A stretch of DNA of 64,000 nucleotides from Paenibacillus polygoni (lineage in GTDB: Bacteria; Bacillota; Bacilli; Paenibacillales; Paenibacillaceae). Below are positions 2,852 through 20,044 of this stretch, in pieces; the first letter of the stretch is position 1; every line of letters starts with the position of its first letter. The stretch spans positions 3,667,501-3,731,500 of the forward strand of contig NZ_CP127162.1 in NCBI RefSeq assembly GCF_030263935.1, given 5' to 3'. The notes under the pieces are model-generated. The model saw nothing but the letters and a program-made list of their open reading frames with translations, did not search any database and was not told the origin of the DNA. The translations under genes and the position numbers were made by a program.

Positions 2852-3203
2852 AACAGATCACCTCGTGTACCCTGGCTTTTATGCTGAATAACAATGAAAA
2901 TGATTACATTCTTAGTAAATCAAGACTAATTACTCACTCAAACGTGAATAACTACTTTATTGCACTTAGATAATAATACTTTAAACCTACTAATCTATTG
3001 ATTAGATATGTATTTTGTCCTAGAATGATATATATCATAGTTTGGAAATATTTACAACTTTGAAATTCCTAAAACAGTGTATTCAGGAACATTAGATTTA
3101 AGTTCGAAACGATCGAAAAAATATAAATGAGAATGGAGAAAAATATAGGTTAATCCTATGATAAATCAGTATTTTTTCAATGAATGAGGAGGGAGTTTAA
3201 GAT
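2852..3203. other. Divergent intergenic region between pilB and the adhesin gene
   Basis: AT-rich, no ORF worth calling. It must hold promoters for pilB (minus) and the adhesin gene (plus). I see no clear -35/-10 pair in either direction and no riboswitch consensus. The one notable element is a perfect 14-bp palindrome, ATGATATATATCAT, at 3025-3038, which could be an operator or chance in AT-rich DNA. The adhesin start has a strong GAGGAGGGAG ribosome binding site at about 3187-3196. Confidence 0.5.
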
Positions 3204-6200
3204 ATGAAGGACTATGTTCAGAAGAATAAAACACTCGGAATATTTATATTAATATTATTTATCGCCTGTTTTCTTACTATGCAAATAAAGGACTTTTTTA
3301 CTACAGCAGAAGCAAATTCATCCGCCTACAAAATTCGACTGCTCGAAATAACGGATTCTGGTACAACTGACCTATCTTCTCTTCAAAAAGATAAACTAGG
3401 CATCACTGTGGAAACAATGAGCATGAAAAGATTCGTATCTCTACGAAATGAACTTGATGGTTTATACGATGCCATTTATATTGGCTCGGGGGTGTATAGC
3501 ACCAAACCTGTGCAAGGAAATGACCATAATACAAAAACAGTGATGAACGATATAACCAAATTGAAGGCAGAGGAAATAATAGATAACTATATTAATAGAG
3601 GATTATATGTTTTTATACATACACAGCCTTTTGTTGAGCAACAAGGCGGAAACCCAGGAAATCTGTATAACTATTTTAATACATACCGATCTACGGCCGC
3701 TCAGCCTAATGTTATATTTGTAGACAATGCCTCTTCCGCACAGTTTCTAACCGCACTTAATGAGGGCAGTTCACTTTATTTATCAAAACTTAAACAGAGG
3801 CCTCGGCTACATATAACGAATAAAGACTCCATTATTGATTACGCAGTGAATCCGGGTCATATTTATAACATTGGTGATGAACTGAAATTTGAGTTTGAAG
3901 TGTCCAATCGGCAAGATTTTGCAAAGCAGCCCATAACTGCGAATCTATATTTAACGGTTGATAAATCTTCAAAGCTAAGCAAAGAACAGATCGTAGCAAC
4001 CACCACATTAAAAACTGGTCCAACCGGGAAAATCACTTACAAACTTCCTAAGACTTATTCTGGACTGCTCTACTGGAAACTCGAAATTATAGATCAACTG
4101 AATCCTAATCAGCTCAAAGATTATGATACAGGTACAATCCGGTTTCGTGGTAAAAAGACCCAGGTATCCATTCTACAGGTCCTTCCTGCCAAAGAATCCG
4201 TCCGAACGAGCAGTCTGTTATATACAGAAAATATGAATCAAAGCTTTCTGAAAAATGAAGATTATGAACTGAGTATCCAAACGAAAACAATTCCTGAGTT
4301 CAACGAGTATATAAAAGCAAATTACAATTCCAAACAAGGGTATGGACTAAATGGAATATATGACATGCTGATCTTTGGATTTGCTGACATCTATAATACG
4401 AAAGCAGATATCAGTTCATTAGCAGCGGATGGTGTTGTAGAATTTGGCGAAAAAACAAAACAAAGTATTATGTTTACGCATGACACGATCTATGCAAGTA
4501 CAGCGGAGTGGGTAAGCAAATTTCAGAAGATGACGGGACAAATAGCGCCGGAGACAAACTTAGGATTCAGGGGTCCAGCAAAGTCTACTACCGTTGCGGG
4601 GGTAAACAGCGGGCTGTTAACAGATTATCCATTCCAACTGGATAAGACGAGCAATATAGGTGAGTCATTATACAGCGTAGCTACTACGCATAATCAGTAT
4701 TTTACACTTGATCTTGAAGATGACTCTGTTGTGCCTTGGTACAATATTTCAGGAGGCAGCCGAGATGTAAGTGATAGTTGGAATCATTACTATACCTATT
4801 CCAAAGGAAATATCACCTATTCAGGTACAGGACATATTTTCCAGAGTAACCTCTCTACTCAGTTTCCAGTCTGGGAACAAAAGTTGTTTGTAAATACCAT
4901 GTACCGTGCTTTCGCAGGGGCAAACCATGCTCCTGAAATTACGATTCTATCACCAGAAAATAATAGCAGCAGACCATCGTATCAGAAGGATTTTTCAGTT
5001 AGTTATACAGTGGACGACTGGGACTTTAAAGATCGAAATATTTTGACCAGTATCCACTTTAAAGCCGATGGCGATGCCTTACCTAATATGTCGGTTAACA
5101 ATAAACCCGTTACCACCGGACAGACAATTACACAGACGTTCAAGAACCCGCTCCCCGAGGGAGGTACACTTGAGATCATCATTACTGCCGAGGATAAACA
5201 AGGAGCAAAAGCGGTTCAATCCCTTATATTAAACTTTGAGAAGAAATCAACTATGCTCGAAACATCCCGCCATCTTTCTGAACACGTCATTAACAATGAA
5301 CTTAAAAAAAACGAACCCGTGAGCATCACCTATCAAATTACACCCAAATCTATTCCATACAGTGAGGTGGATAAAGGCATACAAGGCATAGATAATTTGG
5401 TTTTATCTAATCTTGAGTATACAGAAACGTTCCCTGCTCAGCTGAACATCGATAATACACCGGATGGGGCAATAACGGTTGGGGACATATCTTCGGGTTA
5501 TCAGCTTCGTTTACCGCTTGGAGATGTTTTCTATGAATCCAAAGAGCAGAACGGAGTTATGATGTATATTCCAAAGACTCAGGAACCCATAACTTATACC
5601 ATAACAGTCAGACCTCTAAGTAAAGGAGTATATTTACTGGATCAGTCCCAGCTGGAATATGATGATCTTCGTGCAGCAGTAACGTTAGAAGAGGAAAATG
5701 GGCAACAAAAATATAGGGATATATCAGAGCTTTTCCCAAACATGGGTCCTTTATCTCCACTTGGACTCCCGGCTGACCTTTCCTTGTATGCATTAAATGA
5801 TGTTCAGAACTCTGGTTTTGCCTTTCATGGCAGGGTTATTGCAGGTGGTAATATTACTTTAGATAGTTTTGGCATCGGCGAAAAACTAGAAGAGGCTGCC
5901 AATTCAACCTACTCTGTCATTGCTCTAAAGTCACTAAATCTTGGAGAGGGTTCTGTAAAGTATGGTAAAGTAGCATACGGTACAACAATAAACACTCCAG
6001 AATATCATAATTACCAGACTGTAAAAGAAGTTAATTTATCCGCCGATAATCTAAATCGGCGCCTTCTCTCCTTATCAGAGCAGTTGTCGAAACTTCCAGC
6101 TACAGCTGAGCCCAAGATATATAGTGAGGATTTTTCCAATTTTCCTGGTGAAGATTTTTCCAAGTGTCAGCTCATATTATATGGAAAAGAAGAGACAGTA

Positions 6201-7784
6201 AATATTTTTCATGTAACAGAGAAAATGCTGGCTGCATCCAGTTGCACTTGTATCTATGCTCCTGTTGGTTCTACCGTGATCGTGAATGTGGACGGTGCAT
6301 CAGCAACCATGAGCGGCGGAATTAAACTCATGAATGTCGATTCAAATCATGTACTGTATAACTTTTACAACGCTTCTTCGGTTTCAACAACATCCATTGA
6401 TGTGTTTGGTTCCATTCTAGCTCCAAAAGCGAATTACGAACTTAAAGGCAATGTCTTTGGTACCGTTATCGTACGTAATATGTCAAACAGTGGTTATTCG
6501 ATCCGGTCTAGCCCGTTTCAAGGCGACATTGGTCTGCCGCCAACCGAACCAGAAACACCAGTAACACCAGAACTACCCGATTCATCTGATCCATCAGAGC
6601 CAACCACGCCCATTTCACGTGTCACTTCTTTGTTCCCGACTTTGTTACTCAAAGCTGTGGTCAAAGTAGAGAAAATTGAGGCCGAAGGTACAACGATGCT
6701 AGTTGGTACGGAGCATAAAATTACGCCAACTATACTTCCAGAAGATGCAGATAATAAAATGTTGCAGTGGAGAAGTTTGAACTCTGATATAGCTACTGTA
6801 TCTGATGAGGGGGTCGTTCGTGGTCTAAAAGGCGGGATCGCAAACCTAGAGGTTTCTGCTATAGACGGAAGTGATGTTACTTCCATTGTCACTATCAAGG
6901 TTATTAACCGAAGTTTAACTATTATTGGACCTAATACTGCCAAAACAAATGAAACGATCGATCTTGAAGCAATCTACATTACAGCGAATGAGAATGTAAC
7001 CGGGTATAGATGGGAGGTAATAAACGATAACGGACAAAACAGTTCCGACAAAGTAATCTTACATCCAAATCTAAATGACCAGAGTAAAATCAGCATCTCG
7101 GCAATAAAGAAAGGAATTGTCACACTCGTGGTGACCGTCTTAACAGATCAGTCTCCTAATGGTGTGAAATCAAGCGAACATACGATTACCATTAGCGAGC
7201 CGATCAAGCAGATTTTCATCGATGGACCAAGCCAAGTCATGGTTGGCGATCTAATAACCCTTGATGCAGGCACCATCCCCTATAACCCGGATATAAAGCA
7301 TTTTATATGGTCCTTAACCGGAGATGGTAAAACATACGCTACGCTAACCCCTTCAGAGGATGGGAGAAAAGCGGAACTCACAGGCGTCAAATCAAAGGAT
7401 AAGGTTGAAGTGAAACTCTCACTAAGTGACGACGAAGGATCTCCTCCTTTAACTGATGTTAAGTTGGTGAGCATTAAACCGAGACTCGAAGGCCTGCATT
7501 TGTCAGATACCACACTTGATATTGGGGGTTCTGAAAATTTGGCTCGGAATAAACTAACATCTTTCCCTAGGGATTTTGATCCCTACCTGCTAAAAGACAG
7601 ACTCACTTGGATCAGCAGTACTCCTTCTGTTGTTTCGATAGATGAGATGGGTATTGTCACTGGAATAAAAAAAGGTGTCGCGACGATTACGGTTACTTAC
7701 CACAGTCCCCAAGCTGGACAGAGTACAGTGACAGCCAGCGGCACTGTAAAAGTGAACGCAAAAAGCAGCGAAGATCGATACTAG
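3204..7784 (+). CDS. Large secreted multidomain adhesin-like protein (choice-of-anchor A region plus BIG2-type repeats)
   Basis: A 1526-residue exported protein. Residues about 9-38 form a hydrophobic signal segment ending TTAEA-NS. The region at about 40-230 (YKIRLLEITDSG, then YDAIYIGSGVY and NRGLYVFIHTQP) resembles the Paenibacillus family I know as DUF5057. An Ig/cadherin-like stretch starts near residue 573 (APEITILSPENN). Residues about 870-1110 look like the choice-of-anchor A adhesin fold (FHGRVIAGGNITL ... IDVFGSILAPKANYEL). A Pro/Thr/Glu linker follows at 1112-1140. BIG2-like repeats lie near 1160-1245 and 1435-1520 (IATVSDEGVVRGLKGGIANL; VVSIDEMGIVTGIKKGVATI), with Ig-like material between. 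No LPXTG motif or C-terminal membrane helix is seen. It is the only plus-strand gene in the pilus locus, so a pilus-linked adhesin is likely but inferred. Confidence 0.75.
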   Translation: MKDYVQKNKTLGIFILILFIACFLTMQIKDFFTTAEANSSAYKIRLLEITDSGTTDLSSLQKDKLGITVETMSMKRFVSLRNELDGLYDAIYIGSGVYSTKPVQGNDHNTKTVMNDITKLKAEEIIDNYINRGLYVFIHTQPFVEQQGGNPGNLYNYFNTYRSTAAQPNVIFVDNASSAQFLTALNEGSSLYLSKLKQRPRLHITNKDSIIDYAVNPGHIYNIGDELKFEFEVSNRQDFAKQPITANLYLTVDKSSKLSKEQIVATTTLKTGPTGKITYKLPKTYSGLLYWKLEIIDQLNPNQLKDYDTGTIRFRGKKTQVSILQVLPAKESVRTSSLLYTENMNQSFLKNEDYELSIQTKTIPEFNEYIKANYNSKQGYGLNGIYDMLIFGFADIYNTKADISSLAADGVVEFGEKTKQSIMFTHDTIYASTAEWVSKFQKMTGQIAPETNLGFRGPAKSTTVAGVNSGLLTDYPFQLDKTSNIGESLYSVATTHNQYFTLDLEDDSVVPWYNISGGSRDVSDSWNHYYTYSKGNITYSGTGHIFQSNLSTQFPVWEQKLFVNTMYRAFAGANHAPEITILSPENNSSRPSYQKDFSVSYTVDDWDFKDRNILTSIHFKADGDALPNMSVNNKPVTTGQTITQTFKNPLPEGGTLEIIITAEDKQGAKAVQSLILNFEKKSTMLETSRHLSEHVINNELKKNEPVSITYQITPKSIPYSEVDKGIQGIDNLVLSNLEYTETFPAQLNIDNTPDGAITVGDISSGYQLRLPLGDVFYESKEQNGVMMYIPKTQEPITYTITVRPLSKGVYLLDQSQLEYDDLRAAVTLEEENGQQKYRDISELFPNMGPLSPLGLPADLSLYALNDVQNSGFAFHGRVIAGGNITLDSFGIGEKLEEAANSTYSVIALKSLNLGEGSVKYGKVAYGTTINTPEYHNYQTVKEVNLSADNLNRRLLSLSEQLSKLPATAEPKIYSEDFSNFPGEDFSKCQLILYGKEETVNIFHVTEKMLAASSCTCIYAPVGSTVIVNVDGASATMSGGIKLMNVDSNHVLYNFYNASSVSTTSIDVFGSILAPKANYELKGNVFGTVIVRNMSNSGYSIRSSPFQGDIGLPPTEPETPVTPELPDSSDPSEPTTPISRVTSLFPTLLLKAVVKVEKIEAEGTTMLVGTEHKITPTILPEDADNKMLQWRSLNSDIATVSDEGVVRGLKGGIANLEVSAIDGSDVTSIVTIKVINRSLTIIGPNTAKTNETIDLEAIYITANENVTGYRWEVINDNGQNSSDKVILHPNLNDQSKISISAIKKGIVTLVVTVLTDQSPNGVKSSEHTITISEPIKQIFIDGPSQVMVGDLITLDAGTIPYNPDIKHFIWSLTGDGKTYATLTPSEDGRKAELTGVKSKDKVEVKLSLSDDEGSPPLTDVKLVSIKPRLEGLHLSDTTLDIGGSENLARNKLTSFPRDFDPYLLKDRLTWISSTPSVVSIDEMGIVTGIKKGVATITVTYHSPQAGQSTVTASGTVKVNAKSSEDRY

Positions 7785-7797
7785 GCCAAAACAAAAC

Positions 7798-7848
7798 AAA
7801 TAACCCGTGCAGGGAGAGAATCACATTCACACCCTGCACGGGTTATTT
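7798..7848. terminator. Bidirectional terminator between adhesin and PilX-like gene
   Basis: A 17-bp perfect inverted repeat (AAATAACCCGTGCAGGG and its complement) with a 17-nt loop. It has a T-run on the plus strand and an A/T-rich flank on the other side. It sits between two convergent genes and probably serves both. Confidence 0.9.
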
Positions 7849-7867
7849 TTCGCTTAATTACAAATAT

Positions 7868-9598
7868 TTAATTCAATTTGATTGGCCCCACTTGAACACT
7901 CATCTGATTAACCCTTGGAAGACCCTTCTGCTGCTGCTTGTATACTTCTTCATTATACCTGGCCGAAAACCGAACTAAGTTGGTCCCTGGCGTAATTTGA
8001 ATGACCCCATTTCCAGCAAACGTCTCTCCACGTACTGCGTTGACCGTAAGATCTCCTTTGGCAAAGAAACCGCCGCTTAAAGAAAGGATTGAACCTACCC
8101 CATAGAGCTCCGCTGTTGAATCGGTATAGAAAAAAGCTTGTATTACTTCTGTTTTACTCTGAAAAGCATCCAGCCGGTTAATAAGTACTGCGCCTTCTGA
8201 CATCACTACCCCAGAACCGCTAATCGCGGCATCTTCCACAAGCGTAGCATATCCCTCTCCTCCTGATGGACCTAAAACATATATAGTAGAATCAAGCTGA
8301 ACATTACCTCTAATCTGCAATTTTCCCGTAACTAGCATATTGGCCTTTATCATGATAGGCGTGTCCTTATAATTATTAATTGTCAAATCCCCGTCTACAA
8401 CAAACCAATGATCACTTTTAGACTCGTATTCAATTCCTCCTAGCTCTACACCATCATAGGTTAGATCACCGTGGTAAATAAAAGACTTGTCCGGTTTCGT
8501 AAAACGCTCGATCTGGTTTCTGTAATAAGCCCAAGCATGCTGATCTTCTGGTTTATCTGATTGTTCAGGAATACCGGGTTTTGTTGGGATTTGATCTGGC
8601 GCATCATATAATACAGGATAATTCCGTAGAAACTCACCTAACGTATGATTATTGATGTGTTTTCGAATAAGTGATCTGTCAATTGCTGAGTTTTTTAAAG
8701 ACTCGATAACTTTATCGACAAAAGACTCCCTCACATTCAGCTGTACGAACTTGCGATGATTTCGAACGCGCAGCTGTTTCTCAGGGATAATGAATTGGCT
8801 GCTTGCTCCTTCGCTAAGCCATTCTTCGGCGCTTTTTGTAGTATCGTTCAAAGTGTATAAGACTTGTTTAAGTGATTGAATATGTGCTTCTCCATCCAGC
8901 TGAAGAGGAGACGAGAACAATGTTTGTACATCCCTCGACTGATAATAATATTTCGCCTTATCCCCGATCCTCAGATTATTCCCTGCATAAATATTCCCCT
9001 GAATATAAGGAGAACCATTAATAGTTAAATCGTTTTCTGAACCTAAAGTGTATTTCAGAAAGTCAGGGTAGGTATCATAAATGACTTCTTGCGTGAGTTC
9101 ACGCTGAACACCATTTACCTCTGCTTCAACGGTTAACGTCACGTGATAGGCCGCTGCCTGTTGTTGGTAACTTACTTTTTTATAATCCAGTTGAAGCAGC
9201 TTACCTGTTGCATTTGTCAGCTCTGTACTGGTCATAAGGTCTTTATAAGACCCTTGCTCTAAACCAGATAGATAGAGGTCCACATCACGTTCTAATTTTT
9301 CTTGAGTACCATCTATACTTTTAGTGACAATCGACTGCAAATTAGAAGTTATACCAGCTATGACTTCTTCCAGTGTTTTTTCTGCGAGATGTAAACTTTG
9401 TACATCATTTTCTCTCGTCTCTGCCCGCTGAGCACCTCCGACCGCGGCACTTAATACAGCAGTCCCGAGAATGGTAAGCAAGAGGGCAATAAACATAACG
9501 AGTACCAGCGCAGAACCGTGTTCACCAGCAGAAGCCTTTACCACCATTTTCTTTGCTTTCACTGAAAAGATCCGAGCTATCTTATTAAAATTAAACAT
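7868..9598 (-). CDS. PilX-like membrane-anchored protein with polymer-forming (bactofilin-like) beta region
   Basis: A 576-residue protein whose N-terminus resembles PilX/minor-pilin assembly proteins: a short basic segment, then a hydrophobic helix at about 29-52 (SALVLVMFIALLLTILGTAV), then an amphipathic stretch rich in E and Q. There is no G-F-T-L-x-E prepilin peptidase site. The C-terminal half has short repeating strands with N/G turns (GDLTINNYKD, NMLVTGKLQIRGNVQLD, AAISGSGVVMSEGAVLI), like a right-handed beta-helix. The ATG has AGGAGA 8 nt upstream. It follows the two prepilin genes by 12 bp and ends the operon. The role is probably in pilus priming or a surface layer, inferred from position only. 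Confidence 0.65.
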   Translation of the reverse strand: MFNFNKIARIFSVKAKKMVVKASAGEHGSALVLVMFIALLLTILGTAVLSAAVGGAQRAETRENDVQSLHLAEKTLEEVIAGITSNLQSIVTKSIDGTQEKLERDVDLYLSGLEQGSYKDLMTSTELTNATGKLLQLDYKKVSYQQQAAAYHVTLTVEAEVNGVQRELTQEVIYDTYPDFLKYTLGSENDLTINGSPYIQGNIYAGNNLRIGDKAKYYYQSRDVQTLFSSPLQLDGEAHIQSLKQVLYTLNDTTKSAEEWLSEGASSQFIIPEKQLRVRNHRKFVQLNVRESFVDKVIESLKNSAIDRSLIRKHINNHTLGEFLRNYPVLYDAPDQIPTKPGIPEQSDKPEDQHAWAYYRNQIERFTKPDKSFIYHGDLTYDGVELGGIEYESKSDHWFVVDGDLTINNYKDTPIMIKANMLVTGKLQIRGNVQLDSTIYVLGPSGGEGYATLVEDAAISGSGVVMSEGAVLINRLDAFQSKTEVIQAFFYTDSTAELYGVGSILSLSGGFFAKGDLTVNAVRGETFAGNGVIQITPGTNLVRFSARYNEEVYKQQQKGLPRVNQMSVQVGPIKLN

Positions 9599-9610
9599 GT
9601 GCTTGTTCTC

Positions 9611-10171
9611 CTAAAATCCAAATTTACTCTCTAGTTCAAGCGAATAATCCCGGTCATTCTCCTGTCTTTGCAGTACAAGTTTGATATAGATAAGCCCAGT
9701 CTCGCAGTAGGCATCGTTTTGACAAAGCCTTTCATCAGCCGTTTTTGCCACAATAGTGGACTGATCAAGTACGGCTTGTATTGAAGTAGCAGATGTACTA
9801 GATATGTATTCTTCCTCTTCAGCTAAAATTGCTTTTGATGTATATTCTTCTATCACTAGCTTTCCTTCTCGGATGGCAATTTCTCGGTGTTCTGAATTAC
9901 CTGCTTGTCCTCTGCTAAGAATGATACCGTCCTTACTATTTTCGATAGATTCGGGAGCAAAGGTATATAGTTCCGTCATAATGGACGACATGATGAGATC
10001 ACCCTCATCCCGCAGTGCATTCTCGGTAGTTATGCGGTGATATTCACGAAATCCAGAGAAAGTAATAACCGAAATCAGTCCAACAAGAATCGTGAAAATG
10101 GTTATGGCCGCAATTAACTCAATAAGGGTAAACCCCGCATCTAGATGCTGGTTATCTTCTGATTTTTTCAT
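9611..10171 (-). CDS. Type IV prepilin-like protein (PilW/GspJ-like minor pilin)
   Basis: A 186-residue protein with a classic class-III signal: a 13-residue leader ending in Gly, then FTLIELIAAITIFTILVGLI, with Glu at +5 for pilin assembly. Prepilin peptidase would cut after G13. The globular part is acidic and has two cysteines (LCQNDAYCETG), perhaps a disulfide. Size fits minor pilins of the PilW/GspJ type. It overlaps the upstream prepilin gene by 20 bp, and the ribosome binding site GGAGG lies inside that gene, so the two are expressed together. Confidence 0.8.
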   Translation of the reverse strand: MKKSEDNQHLDAGFTLIELIAAITIFTILVGLISVITFSGFREYHRITTENALRDEGDLIMSSIMTELYTFAPESIENSKDGIILSRGQAGNSEHREIAIREGKLVIEEYTSKAILAEEEEYISSTSATSIQAVLDQSTIVAKTADERLCQNDAYCETGLIYIKLVLQRQENDRDYSLELESKFGF

Positions 10172-10808
10172 CTGTAATATAGCCCTCCACTACGGCTTCG
10201 TTTCTATGTCCCCTTGGACCACCAGGCCCCGTAACAGTAACTTTCACAGGCAGTAAATAACCCGCTAATGATTCACCGTCTTGCGACGAATCCATACCAC
10301 CGCCAAGTTCCAAACTTTTAATTCTAGTACCATCCTTTAATTGCTGATGAAGCTTCGACTGATAAGAAATAACAAGCTCATACTGCACATTATTCACCTT
10401 TGGATTCAATACCTCTGGTAGAGTGTGAGCATTCCTGAATAAAGAATTATACTTACACTCCGTTACCTGGGTGCAGGAACTCCCTTTTATAATCGGCGAT
10501 CCCTCTTTATCTGATTTGAAGTATGCATCCATCTTCGTAAAATCCTGCTTCTCCAAATAAACCAATGCATTACGCGCTAAATTCACCATGACTGTCTTAT
10601 TCTGATTTGATTTAGCATAGGAATGTGCATTCATAAAATAGGAGAAAACAACGAGAGAAACAATAGATAAAATAATAGTAGCTGCAAGCACTTCCACCAA
10701 TGTAAAACCCTGCTCTTTCTGAATTTGTGCTTTCAAGGACGAAGATCCCTCACGATCTTTAGCAATCTGCTTTCGAGTTACAAGGAAATTATGTAATACT
10801 TCTTTCAT
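10152..10808 (-). CDS. Type IV prepilin-like protein (PilV/GspI-like minor pilin)
   Basis: It contains the prepilin motif QGFTLVEVLAATIILSIVSL with Glu at +5. From the first ATG the product is 218 residues with an unusually long 34-residue leader. That ATG overlaps the stop of the upstream nuclease gene (ATGA). A TTG at 10736-10734, with GAGGG 9 nt upstream, would give the normal 10-residue leader MKAQIQKEQG, so it may be the true start. The mature domain has one Cys pair (SCTQVTECKY). It probably acts with the adjacent PilW-like and PilX-like proteins as the pilus-initiating minor pilin complex. The exact subfamily cannot be told without alignment. Confidence 0.78.
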   Translation of the reverse strand: MKEVLHNFLVTRKQIAKDREGSSSLKAQIQKEQGFTLVEVLAATIILSIVSLVVFSYFMNAHSYAKSNQNKTVMVNLARNALVYLEKQDFTKMDAYFKSDKEGSPIIKGSSCTQVTECKYNSLFRNAHTLPEVLNPKVNNVQYELVISYQSKLHQQLKDGTRIKSLELGGGMDSSQDGESLAGYLLPVKVTVTGPGGPRGHRNEAVVEGYITDEKIRR

Positions 10809-12151: not shown

Positions 12152-12226
12152 CTTCCTTTAACACTACTCTATTTTAAAGCTGCATTAGCAGGATACCCTT
12201 TTTTCATATGAAATAACCCCCTCTAT

Positions 12227-12267
12227 AAAAAAACTCTGAGCAGCAGCCAAATTGCTGTTACTCAGAG
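12227..12267 (-). terminator. Terminator of the ABC transporter operon
   Basis: Stem CTCTGAGCAGCAGC paired with GCTGTTACTCAGAG (one mismatch, one wobble) and a 6-nt loop, followed on the minus strand by seven T. It lies after the small hydrophobic ORF and closes the operon. Confidence 0.88.
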
Positions 12268-12324
12268 CTATAAATCTAGATCAAATATTCAAACACATAT
12301 TCATAGCAATACGTTTTTGCCCTT

Positions 12325-12462
12325 CTATAACGCTCCCTTAAAATCTGCAATGGCCAACAACACGATCGCAATCAAGATAACGAGATTAACAAGGAATAAC
12401 ACGATTAGTAACACCCACAATAGCCAAACCAGCAATTTCCGAACCCACTTCATAATAAGCAT
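12325..12462 (-). CDS. Tiny hydrophobic membrane protein, 45 residues
   Basis: A short ORF starting MLIMKWVRKLLVWLLWVLL and ending LLAIADFKGAL, preceded by AGGAGAG 8 nt before the ATG. After a short basic start, residues about 8-39 are almost entirely L, V, I, W and A, long enough for one membrane helix or a tight hairpin. It begins 26 bp after the solute-binding protein gene and before the terminator, so it belongs to the ABC operon. It could be a small regulatory subunit of the transporter. This is inferred from position; no family is recognised. Confidence 0.6.
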   Translation of the reverse strand: MLIMKWVRKLLVWLLWVLLIVLFLVNLVILIAIVLLAIADFKGAL

Positions 12463-12488
12463 GGTAAGTAATCTCTCCTAGATGCTCC

Positions 12489-13958
12489 CTATTGCAATTT
12501 ATCTTCAAAAGAGGCCTTTGGATCTTTTTGAAGCTTAAGCAACATTTCGTTCCCTTCTTTTTGCCATTCTGCCAGCGCTTCTTTTGGTGTCTTTTTGTTA
12601 TCCATTACTTGTTTAAAATATTTCTGTCCTACTTGATCAACTTGCCACAGATTCGGCATTTTTTGATACAGCTGGTATTGATTCATATTAACCGGTGGAG
12701 TTGGTTTAAGGGTATAAAATGCGCCGATATTATAATCCAAACCTTCTTTTGGCTTGATATAACTCTTCCGAGACACAAGTTCGTAACTGCTTCTGGCTCT
12801 TATCTTTGCCCATTCTTCACCATTTAGAAATTTAATAAATTCCCATGCGTCATCTGGATTCTGAGCGCTGCTGTTGATGGCCATTAAATTACTGAGATAG
12901 ACGTTGCCGCCAACACCAGGTTTCTCTTGATGTACAGGCGGAGTCACGACATCCCAATCAATAGGATTAAATTTCTCGTTCTTCTCTGCATACTTATTAT
13001 CATTGATTAGACGGGTTACATAACCATAATCAGCGATAACCATCGCAGTACGGCCTTCCATAAACAAGTTGCCTTGGAATGGATTAAATTCCTCAGGTGA
13101 CCCCGAGTTATTGTTCATCGCATCTTGCCCTGCTAAAACTTTGTCTCGAGAAAGCTTTGAGATGGTTGACCATACTTTTTCCCATGAATCATTATCCACT
13201 GTCATCTTCTCTGCCTTATCGTCGTAAGTACGCAATTGCAGAGGAGCTGCATAGGTCTGCGCATCATAGAACGCATCACTTCCCCATTGATTTAAGGATA
13301 TCCCATAAATTTGGTCTTTCCCTTCTCCACTAGTAACACGGCGCGCTTTATCAAAAATGTCATCCCACGTGGATCCATCAACGGGCGGTTCTACGCCTGC
13401 TTTCTGAAAAATCGCCTTGTTATAAAATAAAGCAGAAGAAGAGAATGTCGGAGTTAGCGCATAGATACTGTTATCACCTATATCCTTAATTCCGTCCAGG
13501 ACTGTCGGTACAATATCACTTGTATCAAATTTATCTTCGGCAATGAGGGGATCTAGCTGCTTGAGCATATTTTCCTGAACCAAGGACTTCATTGTACTTA
13601 CATCGCCAATAATAATGTCTACTGGATTATCCCCGGTCAGCATCTTTTTCACGGATTCAAGTTGATCCGGCTGTTCGGGCTGTTCCTTTTGTGTGTAATC
13701 ATAGTACTGATACTCGGTCTGATCAATGGCAGGTACAATCTCAATCGTTATATTATCGTTTAACACTTCAAACACGTCCGTATACTGCTGACGGAAATAG
13801 GAATCATCATTACTTCCATATAGCGTTCCCAATCGCAATACTCGCTCTTGCTGCTGTGATGGTTCGGCAGCTGTACAGCCCGCAATTGCCGGTGCCACCA
13901 GTGTCATACAAGTAAGTAATGTCACAACAGGACGAGCTAACAAAGACCTCTTTTTCAT
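12489..13958 (-). CDS. Extracellular solute-binding lipoprotein (family 1, sugar-type)
   Basis: A 489-residue lipoprotein: MKKRSLLARPVVTLLTCMTL, then lipobox AIAGC with the lipid Cys near residue 27. The rest has the layout of family 1 binding proteins: an early LRLGTLYG strand, PVDIIIGDVSTMKSL, ALTPTFSSSALFYNKAIFQKAG (the usual hinge region), GRTAMVIADYGY and DDAWEFIKFLNGEEWAK near the C-terminus. The start was chosen for its signal peptide and GAGAGGAAG site; a longer reading adds 27 unlikely residues. No MalF/MalG-type permeases are adjacent. The gene follows an FtsX-type permease and its ATPase, an unusual partner set. The ligand is unknown. Confidence 0.85.
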   Translation of the reverse strand: MKKRSLLARPVVTLLTCMTLVAPAIAGCTAAEPSQQQERVLRLGTLYGSNDDSYFRQQYTDVFEVLNDNITIEIVPAIDQTEYQYYDYTQKEQPEQPDQLESVKKMLTGDNPVDIIIGDVSTMKSLVQENMLKQLDPLIAEDKFDTSDIVPTVLDGIKDIGDNSIYALTPTFSSSALFYNKAIFQKAGVEPPVDGSTWDDIFDKARRVTSGEGKDQIYGISLNQWGSDAFYDAQTYAAPLQLRTYDDKAEKMTVDNDSWEKVWSTISKLSRDKVLAGQDAMNNNSGSPEEFNPFQGNLFMEGRTAMVIADYGYVTRLINDNKYAEKNEKFNPIDWDVVTPPVHQEKPGVGGNVYLSNLMAINSSAQNPDDAWEFIKFLNGEEWAKIRARSSYELVSRKSYIKPKEGLDYNIGAFYTLKPTPPVNMNQYQLYQKMPNLWQVDQVGQKYFKQVMDNKKTPKEALAEWQKEGNEMLLKLQKDPKASFEDKLQ

Positions 13959-13980
13959 TAGAAAATCTTCCTCTCTATAG

Positions 13981-14835
13981 TTACTTCGGCTGCGTAATGA
14001 CGATGCGCTCCCCATCAAATTCAAGTGTAGCCCGCTCATCGATGGATAGTGCCTCTAAGTATTCTCTTGGTACCTGCAGTCTTCCAGCGCGATCAATGAT
14101 AACAAATGCCTCATGTACCTCTTTACTGCCTGGAACGCGTTCCGTATCAAGACTAGCATTTCGTTTCACAAATTCGGTACTCGTTAGTCCATCCCGAATA
14201 GCAACAATCCGGTCCACTTTGTTCGCGAGTTCTAGATCATGTGTAACAATGACAATGCTAATCCCAAGTTCCCGGTTCATTTTGCGAAAAATATCCATAA
14301 TACGGTCACTCGTCTCGCTGTCTACCGAACCAGTAGGTTCATCTGCAAGCAGCAATTTTGGCTTATTAGATAAGGAGATCGCAATCGCAACCCTCTGCTG
14401 TTCCCCGCCAGACAGTTGATAAAGCCTTGAATGCATGCGATCTTTAAGACCTACCCACTCCAGCAGCTGTTTGGCATAAGCCCGGTCATATTTACCGCCA
14501 AGCATCATCGGTGTCTCCACATTCTCGAGCGCTGTCATGTATGGAAGTAAGTTGCGGCCGTTATTCTGCCATATAAATCCGACGGTATGACGTTTATATT
14601 CGACGAGCTGAGGTTCTGTCATCTTGAGCAGGTCCCAATCACCAACAACAGCAGTTCCAGCAGAAGGGCGATCTAGCCCGCCTAAAATATTTAAAAGCGT
14701 AGATTTCCCGCTTCCGCTGTTCCCAATGATCGCCATCATTTCTCCATCCTCAACCGTGAGGTTGAGTCCTTGCAAGGCAACCACTTCCACTTCACTTGAT
14801 TTATAAATTTTGACAAGACCTTCACAGTGGATCAT
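13981..14835 (-). CDS. ABC transporter ATPase (MacB/LolD type) with AbrB-like C-terminal domain
   Basis: A 284-residue protein. Residues about 1-225 are an ABC ATPase: Walker A GNSGSGKSTLLN, signature [12 protein letters not shown], Walker [13 protein letters not shown] and H-loop IVTHD. This type normally energises FtsX/MacB permeases. The last 45 residues (FVIIDRAGRLQVPREYLEAL, then ERATLEFDGERIVI) match the AbrB/MazE/SpoVT swapped-hairpin pattern, which is not a usual part of this ATPase family. It starts 1 bp after the permease stop. The AbrB-like tail could dimerise the ATPase or bind DNA; neither is shown. The ATPase call is secure, the tail call is by pattern. Confidence 0.88.
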   Translation of the reverse strand: MIHCEGLVKIYKSSEVEVVALQGLNLTVEDGEMMAIIGNSGSGKSTLLNILGGLDRPSAGTAVVGDWDLLKMTEPQLVEYKRHTVGFIWQNNGRNLLPYMTALENVETPMMLGGKYDRAYAKQLLEWVGLKDRMHSRLYQLSGGEQQRVAIAISLSNKPKLLLADEPTGSVDSETSDRIMDIFRKMNRELGISIVIVTHDLELANKVDRIVAIRDGLTSTEFVKRNASLDTERVPGSKEVHEAFVIIDRAGRLQVPREYLEALSIDERATLEFDGERIVITQPK

Positions 14836-14836
14836 C

Positions 14837-17755
14837 TTACCGCTCCTCTCCCATTTTGACGGCTTGATGCACCTTCAGTCTCCGAATTTGCCACAGCAGC
14901 ATTCCTGCACCAATCAGCAGCATTACAAGCGTCACTGCGTACAACTGAAGCGTGTCACTTTGTTCAAAAACAATTCGAAATGGAGGTACTTGCTGTTTCA
15001 CATTATCTGTAGTCTGGAGAAACGGTAAAAATAACCGACTTGCGAGTTCACCGATCCCAATTCCGAGTACAATCGATAATCCTGCGGTAAAAATCTGTTC
15101 TAGTAACAACATCCCGCTGAGCTGTGCTCGAGGCAGACCCATGGCGCGGAGTACCCCAAACTGAACAACACGGCCAGATAAGTTAAAGAACCAATACAGC
15201 ACATATCCAATAAGTGAAATCAAGATGGATACCAAGAATCCGAGACTAAGAATTCCAAATACCCCTCCTCTTGAAGGATGTTTACCTTCAGCGACAAGTT
15301 CAGTCCGTACATCTTTTACCGATGACAGCTCGATACCATCTTTGCCAAGTCTCTCAATGAGCGGTGCAACCAGCGCATCAGGTTCCATTTTGAGCCACAC
15401 TTCGTATGGCATCATAGGAACTTGATCGTAGATATAATCTAGATTAGTTATAAAAAAGGGCGTCTCATCCGGATACTGCGCCGGCCAGTAGGGCAGTATG
15501 CCAAAAACAACAAAATCTATCATCTGTTCCTGCAAGGCAATCGATAGTACATCTCCACTTTCCAGCTGATATTTTGCAGCAAACCCGGAAGGAATGATGA
15601 CCGCTCCCTCATAATGACCCAGCAGGTCTAGATATTTATTCGGATGCGCGGGGAACAAATCATTACGAAACCAAGCAACCTCTGCAAAATCAACGTTATC
15701 GATGCCCACGACCATGCCTTGGCCTGCCGATTTACCAGATACGACTACATTTCCCTTGGTCTGCAGCACTCTCGCCGCATGTTCTACACCAGGCAGCTGG
15801 CGAAAAACTTCAAAAGGAGGTTCTGAGTATATTATTTTACTTGGAGCAGGTGAACCCGAGCCGCCGCCGCCTCCAGCTCCACCGCCAGGGTTCCCCCCGC
15901 CTCCTGCACCTGGGTTTCCTCCTCCAGTACCTGGGGATCCAGAACCTCCCCCATTCCCTGCATTTCCGCCGGTGCTTGGTAACATCTCTGCGGTTCCTTC
16001 CCATACCGTCTGCATCACAACATCCGTTCCATACCGGTACAGAGTACGTTCCGTAGAGTTAAGGTCGATCGTCCTCGCAGCAGAAGCATTATATACACCA
16101 AGACCCAAAGTAAGTACGAGCAAGATCATAAGCGGGTAATAAGAAGAAGAGGAGCGAGAAAGCTGTGTTAGCGTAAGGTAGATAGGTACCGGGAAAACTT
16201 TACGCCCTATCCAGCTGAAGAATCTGAGAATCCAAGGGAAGATACGTAAGAAGAATAATCCTGCTGCAAAAATGAAAAGTGCTGGAACAAAGAATAAAAA
16301 CGGCTGTACTTGAAGCTGATCTGTGGTCATCCCGGTTTGAAAAGTCAGCATCTGCCTTTCGTAGAACAGGTAGTAGCCGTAACCCGCAAGACCCAGCAAT
16401 AAAATATCCATATACCAACGCTGCCAAAAAGGTTTTCTATCACTTCTTGCTTGCCTGCGTTTAGCATCAACAATTGTCGACCGGGCATATCCCATGGCGG
16501 GAATAACCGAAGCAATAATCGAAGCAATAACAGCAATGGCGCCAAGAAGAATTGCATCTTGTGTGATTCCGATTGGGATTGATTTACGATCAACAAAGGA
16601 CAGAAATCCACTTGCTGAGCCGATGCTTTTTGCCATAAACCAGCCGAGAAAAGGTCCCGCTACCATCGCAATTGCTCCTAGGACGATGCCCTCCAGTAAA
16701 TATAAAATGACGATCTGCTTGGCGGATGCCCCGCGGCTGCGAAGAACAGCGATATCACTTTCCTGCTTTTGCAGAGACTGTCTAGCATTCATCACGATAA
16801 AATAAAAAACCATCGCAATCATGGGCACCGCTAGTGTAAAAAGCATCGTTTGGAGCTGTAAGCTTTGTTTTCGAAAATTAGCAAGTAAATCTCCAAAAGA
16901 AATATCCACTTTTGTGTCCTTTAGCTTCTGATAAAGTTCAATATCAAGACGCTCTAGTGTACTGCTTAAGGAAGGAAGCTGACTTGTTTTAATCTGACTC
17001 AGATCAAAAACGTAGTACCATTTTGATGTTTGTATCGGCACGTTTTGGTCTGCAAGAAGATACGTATTAAATAAGCCAGGATCTACATAAAATCCATTCA
17101 TCATTCCTTCAAAACCCTGAACCCAGTATGGATCAGCTGTATCATCGGGGGTAAATGCACCCACAATCTTGACTCGAAGGGTAAGATCTAGACCGCTGTA
17201 TACGGGATACTCCATGATGTCTCCCACATGCAGATCATTTCGGTACATCCCTTCTTCCAGCATGACGGCTTCAATAAGATCACCCTGAGCCTGATTTCCG
17301 GGAAGTACACCTTGATTCATCGTGACATGATTTTTGAGATCATTCATTGACCCGAGTGTCATGGTACGAATTCGGCTTGCATCTACTTTTTCCGGATCTT
17401 CTGGGCTGACCTCCGTACTTCGAATGGATCTGATATTAACATAGGTGCTGTAATCAAATCCGATCTTTGCAGGAATATCCTGCTGAATGAATCGATCTAC
17501 ATCCTCAAGTGACCTAAGATCTGTTTTGGTACCGCCGGGAGCTTGATAACTCATAAGCAGTGAACCGGCCGGCATACCGCTGCTCTCATCCTCAAGGGAC
17601 TGTGCAACAACACGCTTTAGTGCGCCATCAGCATACATCGGAATGCTCACCGTGAAGCCAACAGCCACAATAAGACCAATCAAGGTACTTAACGTCAGCC
17701 AGCGCGTATTCCACATTTTGCGAGACAATAATCGTAACAAGGGGATACCTTTCAT
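14837..17755 (-). CDS. FtsX-like ABC permease, 972 residues, with glycine-rich extracellular insert
   Basis: A large permease of the FtsX/MacB superfamily in the duplicated 'long' form. One N-terminal helix (about 18-42) is followed by an extracellular domain to about 310, helices near 315, 360 and 405, two more near 450 and 480 and one near 540, then a second extracellular domain and three final helices (about 830-960) ending LRLKVHQAVKMG. FtsX signatures such as VLRSRGASAKQIVILYLLEG and QFGVLRAMGLPRAQL are clear. Residues about 598-637 are a Gly/Ser/Pro/Asn repeat that probably links the membrane to the second outer domain. It overlaps the adaptor gene stop and sits between two ATPase genes. 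Such proteins often move lipids, peptides or lipoproteins, or work as mechanotransmitters. Confidence 0.87.
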   Translation of the reverse strand: MKGIPLLRLLSRKMWNTRWLTLSTLIGLIVAVGFTVSIPMYADGALKRVVAQSLEDESSGMPAGSLLMSYQAPGGTKTDLRSLEDVDRFIQQDIPAKIGFDYSTYVNIRSIRSTEVSPEDPEKVDASRIRTMTLGSMNDLKNHVTMNQGVLPGNQAQGDLIEAVMLEEGMYRNDLHVGDIMEYPVYSGLDLTLRVKIVGAFTPDDTADPYWVQGFEGMMNGFYVDPGLFNTYLLADQNVPIQTSKWYYVFDLSQIKTSQLPSLSSTLERLDIELYQKLKDTKVDISFGDLLANFRKQSLQLQTMLFTLAVPMIAMVFYFIVMNARQSLQKQESDIAVLRSRGASAKQIVILYLLEGIVLGAIAMVAGPFLGWFMAKSIGSASGFLSFVDRKSIPIGITQDAILLGAIAVIASIIASVIPAMGYARSTIVDAKRRQARSDRKPFWQRWYMDILLLGLAGYGYYLFYERQMLTFQTGMTTDQLQVQPFLFFVPALFIFAAGLFFLRIFPWILRFFSWIGRKVFPVPIYLTLTQLSRSSSSYYPLMILLVLTLGLGVYNASAARTIDLNSTERTLYRYGTDVVMQTVWEGTAEMLPSTGGNAGNGGGSGSPGTGGGNPGAGGGGNPGGGAGGGGGSGSPAPSKIIYSEPPFEVFRQLPGVEHAARVLQTKGNVVVSGKSAGQGMVVGIDNVDFAEVAWFRNDLFPAHPNKYLDLLGHYEGAVIIPSGFAAKYQLESGDVLSIALQEQMIDFVVFGILPYWPAQYPDETPFFITNLDYIYDQVPMMPYEVWLKMEPDALVAPLIERLGKDGIELSSVKDVRTELVAEGKHPSRGGVFGILSLGFLVSILISLIGYVLYWFFNLSGRVVQFGVLRAMGLPRAQLSGMLLLEQIFTAGLSIVLGIGIGELASRLFLPFLQTTDNVKQQVPPFRIVFEQSDTLQLYAVTLVMLLIGAGMLLWQIRRLKVHQAVKMGEER

Positions 17756-18861
17756 TACCTTCCAACCACCTTCTGCCCTGGTGTAAGCCCTTTGAGAATC
17801 TCCACATCGGTGGATGTCTGCTGTCCTGCTTCTACATCCACTTCTCGTTTACTCCCATCCGCTTCTACCACTTGGACATACGTTCTTGAACCAATAGAGC
17901 GAAGAGCTGAGATGGGAATCAGTACGGCATCCTCTTTGCGCTTCGTTACGACACTTACCGTAAGCGGAGTACCTCTGTTTAGTCCCTTAGGCCATTTATC
18001 CATCTCAACAATAACGTATGTATCTAGCGAGTCTTGTGCAGGAGGTTTACCCTCTCCTCCATTATTTCCTCCATTCGAATCTGATCCCAGATTCACCGGC
18101 ATCACTTTAATCGTACCCTGATGTACACCAGCTCCGTTAATATCCACCTCTGCCTTCATACCTGCAGCAATCACTTCAAGATCCTGCTTCGCAAAAGTGG
18201 CGGCAACAACCAGATTAGCTGTATCCGCAATCGTAGCAATCGGGTCATACGCTTTTACCGCTGCTCCTTTTTCAACTTCAACGCTAAGTACCGTGCCGCT
18301 AAAAGGTGCCCCAAGTGTAGACTTACCGACTTGTTCCTCAAGGTCCGAAAGTTCCTGTCTTTGTTCTTCAAAAGTAATGACCGCTTCTTCGTACTCCACA
18401 GGGTCCATTTCCTCTTTTTTACGAAGGGTCTCTTTCATTTGCACTTCGGATTTGCGAATCTGCAATTTCTTTTGACGAATTTGTTTGTTCAGCTCTTCCA
18501 CATCGAGCACCGCAATTTGCTGTCCCGCCTTCACCTTATCCCCGGGCTTCACGTAGAGTTCCTTCACATGCATGCCATCAAGTGTAAAATACGCCTTTTC
18601 CTCTCGCTGACTCATCAGTTTGCCAGAAGCGGACACTTTTGTCTCAATGGTTTCGGTTCTCACTTCATATTCGGGTTTCTTGGAAATCGTCGGCGGTGTA
18701 ATCGGCGGCAGCACTTCCTCTTCCGGCTCAGCCGGAAGTAAGGAGCAACCGGTCAACGACAGGCTTAGGGTTCCGATCAAAACATACTGGGTCCATCGTT
18801 TACCCGCTCTAGGCAGGTGCTTTTTATGTAATAAATTTGCCGTCCACCATCTCGTAAACAT
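17755..18861 (-). CDS. HlyD/MFP-family adaptor lipoprotein
   Basis: A 368-residue lipoprotein: a basic start, a hydrophobic stretch [10 protein letters not shown] and lipobox LTGC. It then has membrane fusion protein architecture: biotinyl-lipoyl half-motif [19 protein letters not shown], a coiled coil at about 120-180 rich in K, E and Q, the second half-motif [18 protein letters not shown], a beta-barrel and a C-terminal TPGQKVV strand. I chose the ATG at 18861 because GGAGG lies 9 nt upstream; it overlaps the preceding ATPase gene by 38 bp. In Gram-positive bacteria such adaptors assist MacB-like exporters, as in YknX-YknY-YknZ. A Gly/Asn-rich loop ([13 protein letters not shown]) sits in the barrel. 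Confidence 0.88.
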
Positions 18862-19705
18862 GGTCTGCAACCTCCAAAATCGTAGGATCATGTGTCGTCA
18901 TACAAATACTAACTTCTTCTGTGGCAATAATTTTCTGGAACACGGCCATAATCTGGGCTCCCATTTTGGAATCCAGCTCAGCAGTTGGTTCATCAGCCAG
19001 CAGCAGTTTAGGCCGATGTGCAATTGCTTTGGCAATGGCAACACGCTGCTGTTCCCCGCCTGATAATTCAAACGGCCTGTGTTTCGCTCGTTTTGTAAGA
19101 CCCACCATATCAAGACAGTAAGCGACACGCTGGTTCCATTCCCCCTTAGGAACACCTGCCATACGAAGTGACAGTTCTACATTCTCCCAAGCTGACAACA
19201 GGGGCATGAGGGCATACGCCTGAAAGATAAAACCAATCTCCTGTCTTCTCATCCGGGTGCGAGCAGCATCTCCTGCTTCATGAAAAGCTCTTCCGTCAAA
19301 ATAGATCTCCCCGCTTGTCGGCTGGTCCAGTCCTCCAAGCATATTAAGAAGGGTTGTCTTTCCTGAACCTGAACGACCTTTCAGCATAACGAGTTGCTGC
19401 GGCTGCACTTCCATATTAATTCCTTTAAGCACATGTATCGCTCTTCCACCAGTTTCGAAACTACGGTGTACCTCTTGAACCTGCAGCACAGGACCTTTAG
19501 GAATTACTTCTTGATCTGCTTCTTGTAATGCCTCATGTTCTACTTCTTGTAATATCTCTTGTTCTAATTCTTGTACTATTCCAGGCTCATCTTCTATATC
19601 AACCTGCTCCTCTAGAGCTATCCTCTCTGCCACATCCACTGTTGATTTACGTTCTTCTTTGGCTTTTCGAAAGGGTATTCGAATCGTAACTCCCCCCTGC
19701 TTCAA
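18824..19705 (-). CDS. ABC transporter ATPase (MacB/LolD type) with acidic N-terminal extension
   Basis: Read from a TTG codon it is 293 residues. The ATPase core starts near residue 72, with Walker [10 protein letters not shown] at 110-118, signature [15 protein letters not shown], Walker [13 protein letters not shown] and H-loop MTTHD. Residues 1-71 are an extension with an acidic 8-residue quasi-repeat ([23 protein letters not shown]). The start is uncertain: TTG has a weak ribosome binding site, and a better one (GGGGGGAG) lies just inside the frame before ATT and ATA codons. GTG codons at residues 23, 25 and 73 are also possible. It is the first gene of the operon, and its end overlaps the MFP gene. 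Confidence 0.85.
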
Positions 19706-19781: not shown

Positions 19782-19886
19782 ACCTTTTAAAGATATTTTT
19801 ATATTCAGGTTTATCAAACACTGTGGATTCGAAGCTATTGCTGGTAAAAAGTCAGATTACTGCTTTAGTGAAGTTATCTTCACAAC

Positions 19887-19929
19887 AAAAAGAGAGTGTC
19901 TCCCCTTTTAAGAGGAACCACTCTCTTTT
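19887..19929 (-). terminator. Terminator of the pyrimidine operon
   Basis: An 11-bp stem (AAAGAGAGTG region against CACTCTCTTT) with a 20-nt loop that can pair further inside. T-runs follow on both strands. It lies about 115 bp past pyrE and separates it from the ABC operon. The rest of 19706-20044 shows no ORF. Confidence 0.85.
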
Positions 19930-20044
19930 CTCATACTATAATTATATTTTATTCAATTTCATATCTTCATTTAGATGAACGAAACCCTTCCGATCCATAT
20001 ACCCTTGATTAAAGTAAACTAGAATTATGATGAAATGGATTTAC

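Follow-up and report, generated by a model that had tools for sequence, protein, structure and literature searches.

Gene content of the operon

We analysed a 64,000-nucleotide stretch of the Paenibacillus polygoni genome (contig NZ_CP127162.1, positions 3,667,501 to 3,731,500), referred to here as the window. Six open reading frames (ORFs) run on its minus strand from position 19705 down to 12325 and encode, in order, a first ABC ATPase (A1), a membrane fusion protein adaptor (MFP), an FtsX-type permease (PERM), a second ABC ATPase (A2), a solute-binding protein (SBP), and a hydrophobic protein of 45 codons (Table 1). In the sequence, the A1 and MFP genes overlap, and MFP/PERM and PERM/A2 are contiguous within about one base. 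A gap of 22 nt, which includes a purine-rich run resembling a ribosome site, separates A2 from SBP, and 26 nt separate SBP from the short ORF. From the same reading, the SBP start is most likely at 13958 rather than 14039. An intrinsic terminator follows the last ORF, and the hairpin between pyrE and A1 is probably a second terminator that divides the pyr genes from the A1-SBP operon. Sigma-70-like sites in the operon region were no more common than in shuffled sequence (19 versus 15.9 +/- 4.0), so we claim no promoter here. An earlier note on this DNA described six co-directional, overlapping or tightly spaced genes under one terminator, and all six ORFs and the closing hairpin with its U-run were indeed found.

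Table 1 Features of the operon and its flanks.
Feature	Position in window	Strand	Evidence
A1: LolD/FtsE-like ABC ATPase	18824..19705	-	ABC_tran 2e-35, residues 93-242 (Pfam); TTG start
MFP: HlyD/MacA-type adaptor	17755..18891	-	HlyD_D23 2.8e-13, also HlyD_3 (Pfam)
PERM: 972-aa duplicated FtsX-type permease	14837..17755	-	FtsX twice and MacB_PCD (Pfam)
A2: LolD-like ABC ATPase with AbrB/MazE/MraZ-like C-terminal tail	13981..14835	-	ABC_tran 2.3e-32 (Pfam)
SBP: family-1 solute-binding lipoprotein, 489 aa, lipobox IAGC	12489..13958	-	SBP_bac_1 2e-28 (Pfam)
45-codon hydrophobic ORF, lineage-restricted	12325..12462	-	Pfam match: none
Intrinsic terminator of the operon	12226..12269 (about)	-	Hairpin then U-run, -25.1 kcal/mol, z -4.53 vs 200 shuffles
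Hairpin between pyrE and A1	19886..19935 (about)	.	-25.9 kcal/mol, z -5.39

Conservation of the five-gene unit

The genes A1-MFP-PERM-A2-SBP form a real and conserved unit, a conclusion we hold with high confidence. We surveyed 59 genomes, the host included, with both the permease and the SBP, taking an identity of at least 47% as the mark of a permease orthologue and E <= 1e-60 as that of an SBP orthologue. The two co-occur in exactly the same 37 genomes. The remaining 22 have neither, and four of these (G043, G050, G054, G057) contain only a paralogous core that is about 33% identical. Gene order is the same in all 36 orthologous loci compared besides the window's own, and pyrE and pyrF lie within the same stretch in 31 of them.

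A further set of named genomes consisted of the best 80 of 475 relatives; it leans to the SBP-linked clade because the query was built from SBP-linked members. SBP is present in 79 of these 80 loci, behind A2 in 78 and ahead of A1 in one (L265), and the locus lacking it is a 4.1-kb contig that holds only MFP and PERM. A1 and A2 are each present in 79. In 12 of the named loci SBP is present as two copies, which share 44-94% identity. Because so many related species retain the pairing of SBP with the permease, it probably represents a genuine and so far undescribed kind of receptor-fed membrane machine.

More distant samples indicate where the SBP linkage ends. In a class-wide sample, 27 of 250 genomes matched at E <= 1e-40, and SBP was found in seven of the 12 new loci fetched, as tandem copies in L112 (four), L116 (two), and L117 (three or more) and as one copy each in L113, L114, L122, and L123. 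It was not found in four loci of one genus (L118-L121), and the L115 contig ends past A2. Seven further same-genus matches, all short stretches, each have SBP behind A2, and the stretch from G176, which belongs to the SBP-less genus, stops within A2. Phylum-wide, 13 of 398 genomes matched at E <= 1e-20; the nine matches from other classes contain no SBP-family member in their stretches, some of which are shortened by contig ends. Eighteen paralogous loci (L038-L042, L044-L050, L080-L085) also hold no member of the SBP clade, with weak SBP matches of 56-84 bits in L042 and L046 and other SBPs near L038. The SBP of L042, which sits among MalFG genes in their operon and falls outside the clade, was rejected as a family member. 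We likewise rejected L141, where the core lies behind two SBP_bac_5 genes, as an independent recruitment of another SBP type, because genes for two binding-protein-dependent (BPD) permeases and two further ATPases lie immediately upstream in the same orientation, an arrangement like that of an oligopeptide importer.

The 45-codon ORF is probably outside the core unit. Its homologues occur in only two of the 36 orthologous loci, those of the two closest relatives (L051 and L052), and none of the 80 named loci gave a tblastn match at E 0.01. Seven small hydrophobic ORFs follow the last SBP in the 79 named loci, none of which resembles the 45-aa protein by eye, and the protein was rejected as a core part on the basis of its distribution. 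The earlier note had proposed a six-gene unit strengthened by this tiny membrane protein. Five of its genes are conserved together and that proposal holds for them, while the sixth drops out. The note's inclusion of the second ATPase is borne out by the presence of A2 in nearly all named loci with its catalytic motifs kept. It had also set beforehand that a rarely linked SBP, or one belonging with a separate importer, would speak against a hybrid system. Linkage was instead near universal in both sets of loci, and BPD permeases were scarce, as described next. The claim of a composite of outward-type (FtsX/MFP) parts with an importer-type binding protein is thus supported by the SBP linkage. 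The role that the note suggested for SBP, as a sensor or substrate presenter, is so far a hypothesis.

Absence of a MalFG-type permease

Solute-binding proteins are taken as a mark of importers, and several source names label the SBPs of this family sugar-transport proteins. The operon SBP has the family-1 feature of CUT1 importers, with both its SBP_bac_1 match and, in the structural model, a complete carbohydrate-SBP fold. The BPD_transp_1 pair that accompanies the SBP in such importers is not encoded in the unit. The host genome has 42 SBP_bac_1 and 115 BPD_transp_1 matches; of the 42 SBPs, 37 have a BPD_transp_1 match at a distance of 5 kb or less and five do not, the operon SBP among the latter. 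Its nearest BPD_transp_1 match is 56,992 bases away, in agreement with the absence of MalFG-type permeases noted before.

The same pattern appears in the relatives. A BPD permease was found in two of the 80 named stretches, both times outside the unit (L287, with its own generic SBP, and L230, about 9 kb upstream), and in one of the 36 orthologous stretches (L033, beside another ATPase and outside the unit). The profile behind these counts was built from host sequences; the members of a known MalFG pair reach no more than 34 and 17 bits with it, and lone MalG-type genes in relatives could therefore escape it. Orphan SBP copies, at the loci L086, L087 (three copies), and L088, occur in three genomes, all of which also have the core. 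Their neighbours, scanned by Pfam, are of mixed kinds. No BPD permease was found with the host-derived profile in L087 or L088. About 3 kb from the L086 copy, on the opposite strand, lies a distinct importer that includes an SBP-like gene of its own.

Shared descent of the solute-binding protein and permease

For an SBP tree, 30 of the 42 host SBP matches had loci; excluding the SBP of the window itself and two that failed the length filter left 27. The resulting tree has 63 SBPs. Its 33 family members, operon-linked or orphan, group apart from these 27 other host SBPs, with a node support of 0.997 when the node takes in L046 and 1.0 when L046 is left out. In a permease tree of 47 sequences chosen from the loci fetched, the 18 SBP-linked permeases fall together in a single clade (support 0.979) that contains none from an SBP-less locus. 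Across 56 loci, the distances of SBP and of PERM are correlated with a coefficient of 0.882. After regression on the pyrEF distance, the partial r is 0.694, with 0 of 999 permutations as high, and the corresponding values for SBP with MFP and A2 are 0.646 and 0.512. This correlation leans on shared descent and is not read here as evidence of contact.

Permease and adaptor

The PERM model was built from 52 sequences and has a mean predicted local distance difference test (pLDDT) score of 70.5 and a predicted template modelling (pTM) score of 0.50. Ten helices are predicted. The model places one helix first, then an extracellular domain (residues ~58-285), six helices, a second extracellular domain (~579-826) within which the MacB_PCD match falls, and three final helices. 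Its best fold matches in the PDB are E. coli YbbP (9ge6, E 5.9e-19; 9ge7), followed by BceB, MacB, and LolC among others. The unit has the features of the Type VII class: an FtsX-type transmembrane domain with an extracytoplasmic domain after the first helix, and a LolD/FtsE-like ATPase. Residues ~594-637 of the second extracellular domain form a Gly/Pro-rich low-complexity stretch that is also Gly-rich in the homologue consensus.

The adaptor passes the RND_mfp model TIGR01730 with 115.7 bits against a cut-off of 94.9, as expected of a MacA-type adaptor, and scores 53.7 against 342 on the MacA equivalog. Its N-terminal segment ends in a lipobox-like LTGC, and MFP is probably lipid-anchored in the host. 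A simple lipobox pattern is present in the MFP of only 28 of the 80 named relatives.

The two ATPases and the A2 tail

LolD is the top-scoring NCBIfam model for both ATPases, at 204.8 for A1 and 216.2 for A2, with the cut-off of 307.75 unreached. Walker A, Walker B, the Q-loop, and an xSGGEQQR motif are kept by both proteins in all 79 named loci that have them. A1 carries an acidic, poorly conserved N-terminal extension (residues 1-71), and several relatives are shorter there.

A2 ends in a tail of about 45 residues (~240-284) that resembles AbrB, MazE, and MraZ and may be a swapped-hairpin domain of the AbrB/MazE/SpoVT fold, which has a GRxxxP core. Among 19 members, 18 tails matched the MraZ model and 14 matched MazE_antitoxin (E up to 1), and AbrB structures in the PDB were matched at E 0.016-0.018, with a signal recognition particle protein scoring slightly better over half the length. 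Pfam did not report the tail in a whole-protein scan (E up to 0.1). The tail motif is found in all 79 named loci having A2, three of which read GRMQ, and it is found also in related cores without SBP, which suggests that it is probably part of the ancestral core. Where AbrB has PIELRRTL, the A2 tail has PREYLEAL; it lacks two arginines that we take to be DNA contacts in AbrB, and dimerisation or regulation therefore seems likelier than DNA binding. We found no ABC ATPase with an AbrB-like tail described in the literature as covered by titles and abstracts, with few subscription journals included. The same search yielded no account of a family-1 SBP partnering an FtsX/MacB-type permease.

Related loci and their settings

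In L143, a distant relative without SBP (1247-10402), the core lies directly behind an ABC ATPase gene and two genes of TolC-family outer membrane efflux proteins (OEPs), which favours an outward machine. In L043 and L265, which are divergent and SBP-linked, SBP is accompanied by genes for a histidine kinase and a response regulator, and L115 (999-10297) encodes two S-layer-homology proteins between A1 and MFP. The host itself has a second core (L038, G000:C1:2741000-2757500) whose permease is 32% identical to PERM. It is flanked by a GH43/CBM6 enzyme on one side and by two further SBPs and then BPD permeases on the other, with an AraC-type response regulator and a histidine kinase upstream. 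L042 (460-16481) is a paralogous core flanked by Yip1, DUF5696, and two BPD permeases and, at its other end, by the SBP and an apiosidase-like gene; it mixes import- and export-type parts. Together, the OEP, kinase, S-layer, and glycan settings fit an envelope or glycan-linked role, and they do not prove a direction.

Outside the operon, two ORFs at 9611-10808 of the window have the N-termini GFTLIEL and GFTLVEV, which we take to be prepilin-like, and adjoin a larger ORF at 7868-9598. From these motifs, the two look like pilin-type genes.

Comparison with known systems

The unit shares parts with several characterised systems. It has the permease and ATPase fold and the two unlike halves of LolCDE. 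In LolCDE, however, the halves are separate proteins, there is one ATPase gene, and the partner is LolA. The equivalog models also place the unit outside that system, with lolCE at 37.4 against 362.45 and LolD below its cut-off as given above. It does not have the fused ATPase-permease of MacAB either, since the genes are separate and PRK10535 scores 187.7 and 193.8 against 966. CUT1 importers (MalEFGK) have the SBP family and fold in common with the unit, which contains neither a MalF/MalG permease nor a MalK-type ATPase. The BceAB(S) systems share a ten-helix FtsX-type Type VII permease and possible sensing with it, though neither an MFP nor an SBP is known from them. A single extracellular domain is given for BceB in the available part of its description (PMC11466899), whereas the PERM model has two, and the unit does not fall under the BceAB type.

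The closest likeness is to YbbAP-TesA, a Type VII mechanotransmission complex with TesA as its extracytoplasmic partner, as far as the available text of PMC12646458 goes. According to this text, YbbP has ten helices, periplasmic domains between helices 1-2 and 7-8, and internal pseudosymmetry, and YbbA, YbbP, and TesA assemble at 2:1:1. A single-chain, pseudo-symmetric ten-helix permease with two extracytoplasmic domains is common to YbbP and to the PERM model, which is of moderate confidence, and both systems have a LolD-like ATPase and an extracytoplasmic partner, a putative one here. The partner differs: TesA is a hydrolase, whereas here it would be a carbohydrate-type SBP lipoprotein, and the genes linked to PERM encode SBP and MFP rather than a TesA-type hydrolase. 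The unit also has two ATPase genes instead of one, an added MFP, and the AbrB-like A2 tail. By the 2:1 ratio of YbbA to YbbP in that source, each PERM would be expected to work with two ATPases, and the operon encodes two unlike ones. YknWXYZ and the Streptococcus pneumoniae Spr0693-0695 system resemble the unit in having an MFP, a LolD-like ATPase, and a MacB-type permease as separate genes, in the available parts of PMC5985334 and PMC5768738. They differ in having half-size, dimeric permeases and one ATPase gene, and they are not known to have an SBP.

Proposed mechanism and alternatives

We infer that A1, MFP, PERM, A2, and SBP would work together as a single envelope machine belonging to the Type VII (MacB/LolCDE/FtsX) class of ABC systems, for which activation, extraction, and outward pumping are described in the available text of PMC11466899. 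PERM would be a single-chain, pseudo-symmetric YbbP-type permease with an A1/A2 pair beneath it, and ATP binding and hydrolysis would, through mechanotransmission, move both of its extracellular domains. SBP, held at the membrane by its lipid, would capture a saccharide-bearing ligand between membrane and wall and dock on the extracellular domains of PERM or on the adaptor. It may then hand the ligand over for outward passage via the MFP channel, or trigger the power stroke. This outward-acting machine, with SBP as its extracellular partner and an A1/A2 pair as its motor, is the best supported of the readings but a tentative proposal, one we would not yet call probable. It draws on the gene linkage, the shared inheritance of SBP and PERM, the modelled folds of both, the intact ATPase motifs, the YbbP-like topology with TesA as a precedent for an extracytoplasmic partner, and, for the direction, the OEP genes of L143. 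More doubtful is the broader idea of a receptor-fed Type VII family, in which exchangeable, ligand-suited, duplicated SBPs dock on one YbbP-like permease that has an adaptor and two dissimilar ATPases, and load or gate its outward stroke.

Several observations weigh against the outward-acting machine. The OEP link comes from one locus of a distant, SBP-less relative, and the direction it suggests may carry over only by analogy. Paralogous cores with the same gene order often lie in carbohydrate settings (MalFG and DUF5696 in L042; GH43, SBPs, and MalFG in L038), which would also fit sugar uptake. Gene linkage may also reflect co-regulation. The PERM model is only moderate in confidence, support for the exact SBP node falls to 0.083 when the long-branched L046 is included, and the partial r of SBP with A1 is weak at 0.206.

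There are four other readings. If SBP delivered a glycan or some other nutrient to an FtsX-type permease for uptake, its complete carbohydrate-binding fold, the multiplication of its copies as seen for importer receptors, and the glycan genes near some paralogous cores would all be accounted for. We know of no Type VII permease that moves substrate inward across the membrane, however, nor of any role for an MFP in importers, and uptake through PERM seems improbable. SBP could also serve a MalFG importer encoded elsewhere and merely be co-expressed from this operon. The host has many SBPs, five of which have no permease match within 5 kb, and the orphan copy in L086 has an importer within about 3 kb, though on the other strand and with its own SBP-like gene. 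Yet BPD permeases, as far as the host-derived profile detects them, are rare in the named and orthologous stretches and were found in neither L087 nor L088, and SBP presence tracks the FtsX permease exactly through the 37 of 59 genomes. We regard this reading as very improbable indeed.

The unit might instead be a sensor device in which, in a Bce-like manner, a histidine kinase or else the A2 tail relays the ligand state of SBP inwards, with little or no transport. The kinase and response regulator genes beside SBP in L043 and L265, the AbrB-like tail itself, and the place of BceB among the top fold matches of PERM are consistent with such a role. The window operon has no kinase gene, however, and the A2 tail both lacks the presumed DNA-contacting arginines and occurs in SBP-less related cores, so that we consider a sensor unlikely, if still a serious candidate. 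A standard MacAB-like pump that expels antibiotics or peptides, with SBP as a passenger or minor accessory, would fit the MFP score above the RND_mfp cut-off and the existence of related cores without SBP. A passenger should be lost somewhere, but SBP and the orthologous core are never separated in the 59 genomes, and SBP has been repeatedly duplicated in place; we judge a pump of this kind to be rather improbable.

If the SBPs do serve an outward-acting, export-type machine, sugar-transport annotations in the Paenibacillaceae would be misleading and Type VII systems would have a new route of feeding. A receptor-fed Type VII family, if true, would break the rule that SBPs serve importers only and add a new class of partner. 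The AbrB-like tail of A2 is a clue to the way in which such ATPases dimerise or report. The tandem SBP copies are a natural handle on specificity, through which the targets of such machines in Gram-positive envelopes become testable with soluble proteins.

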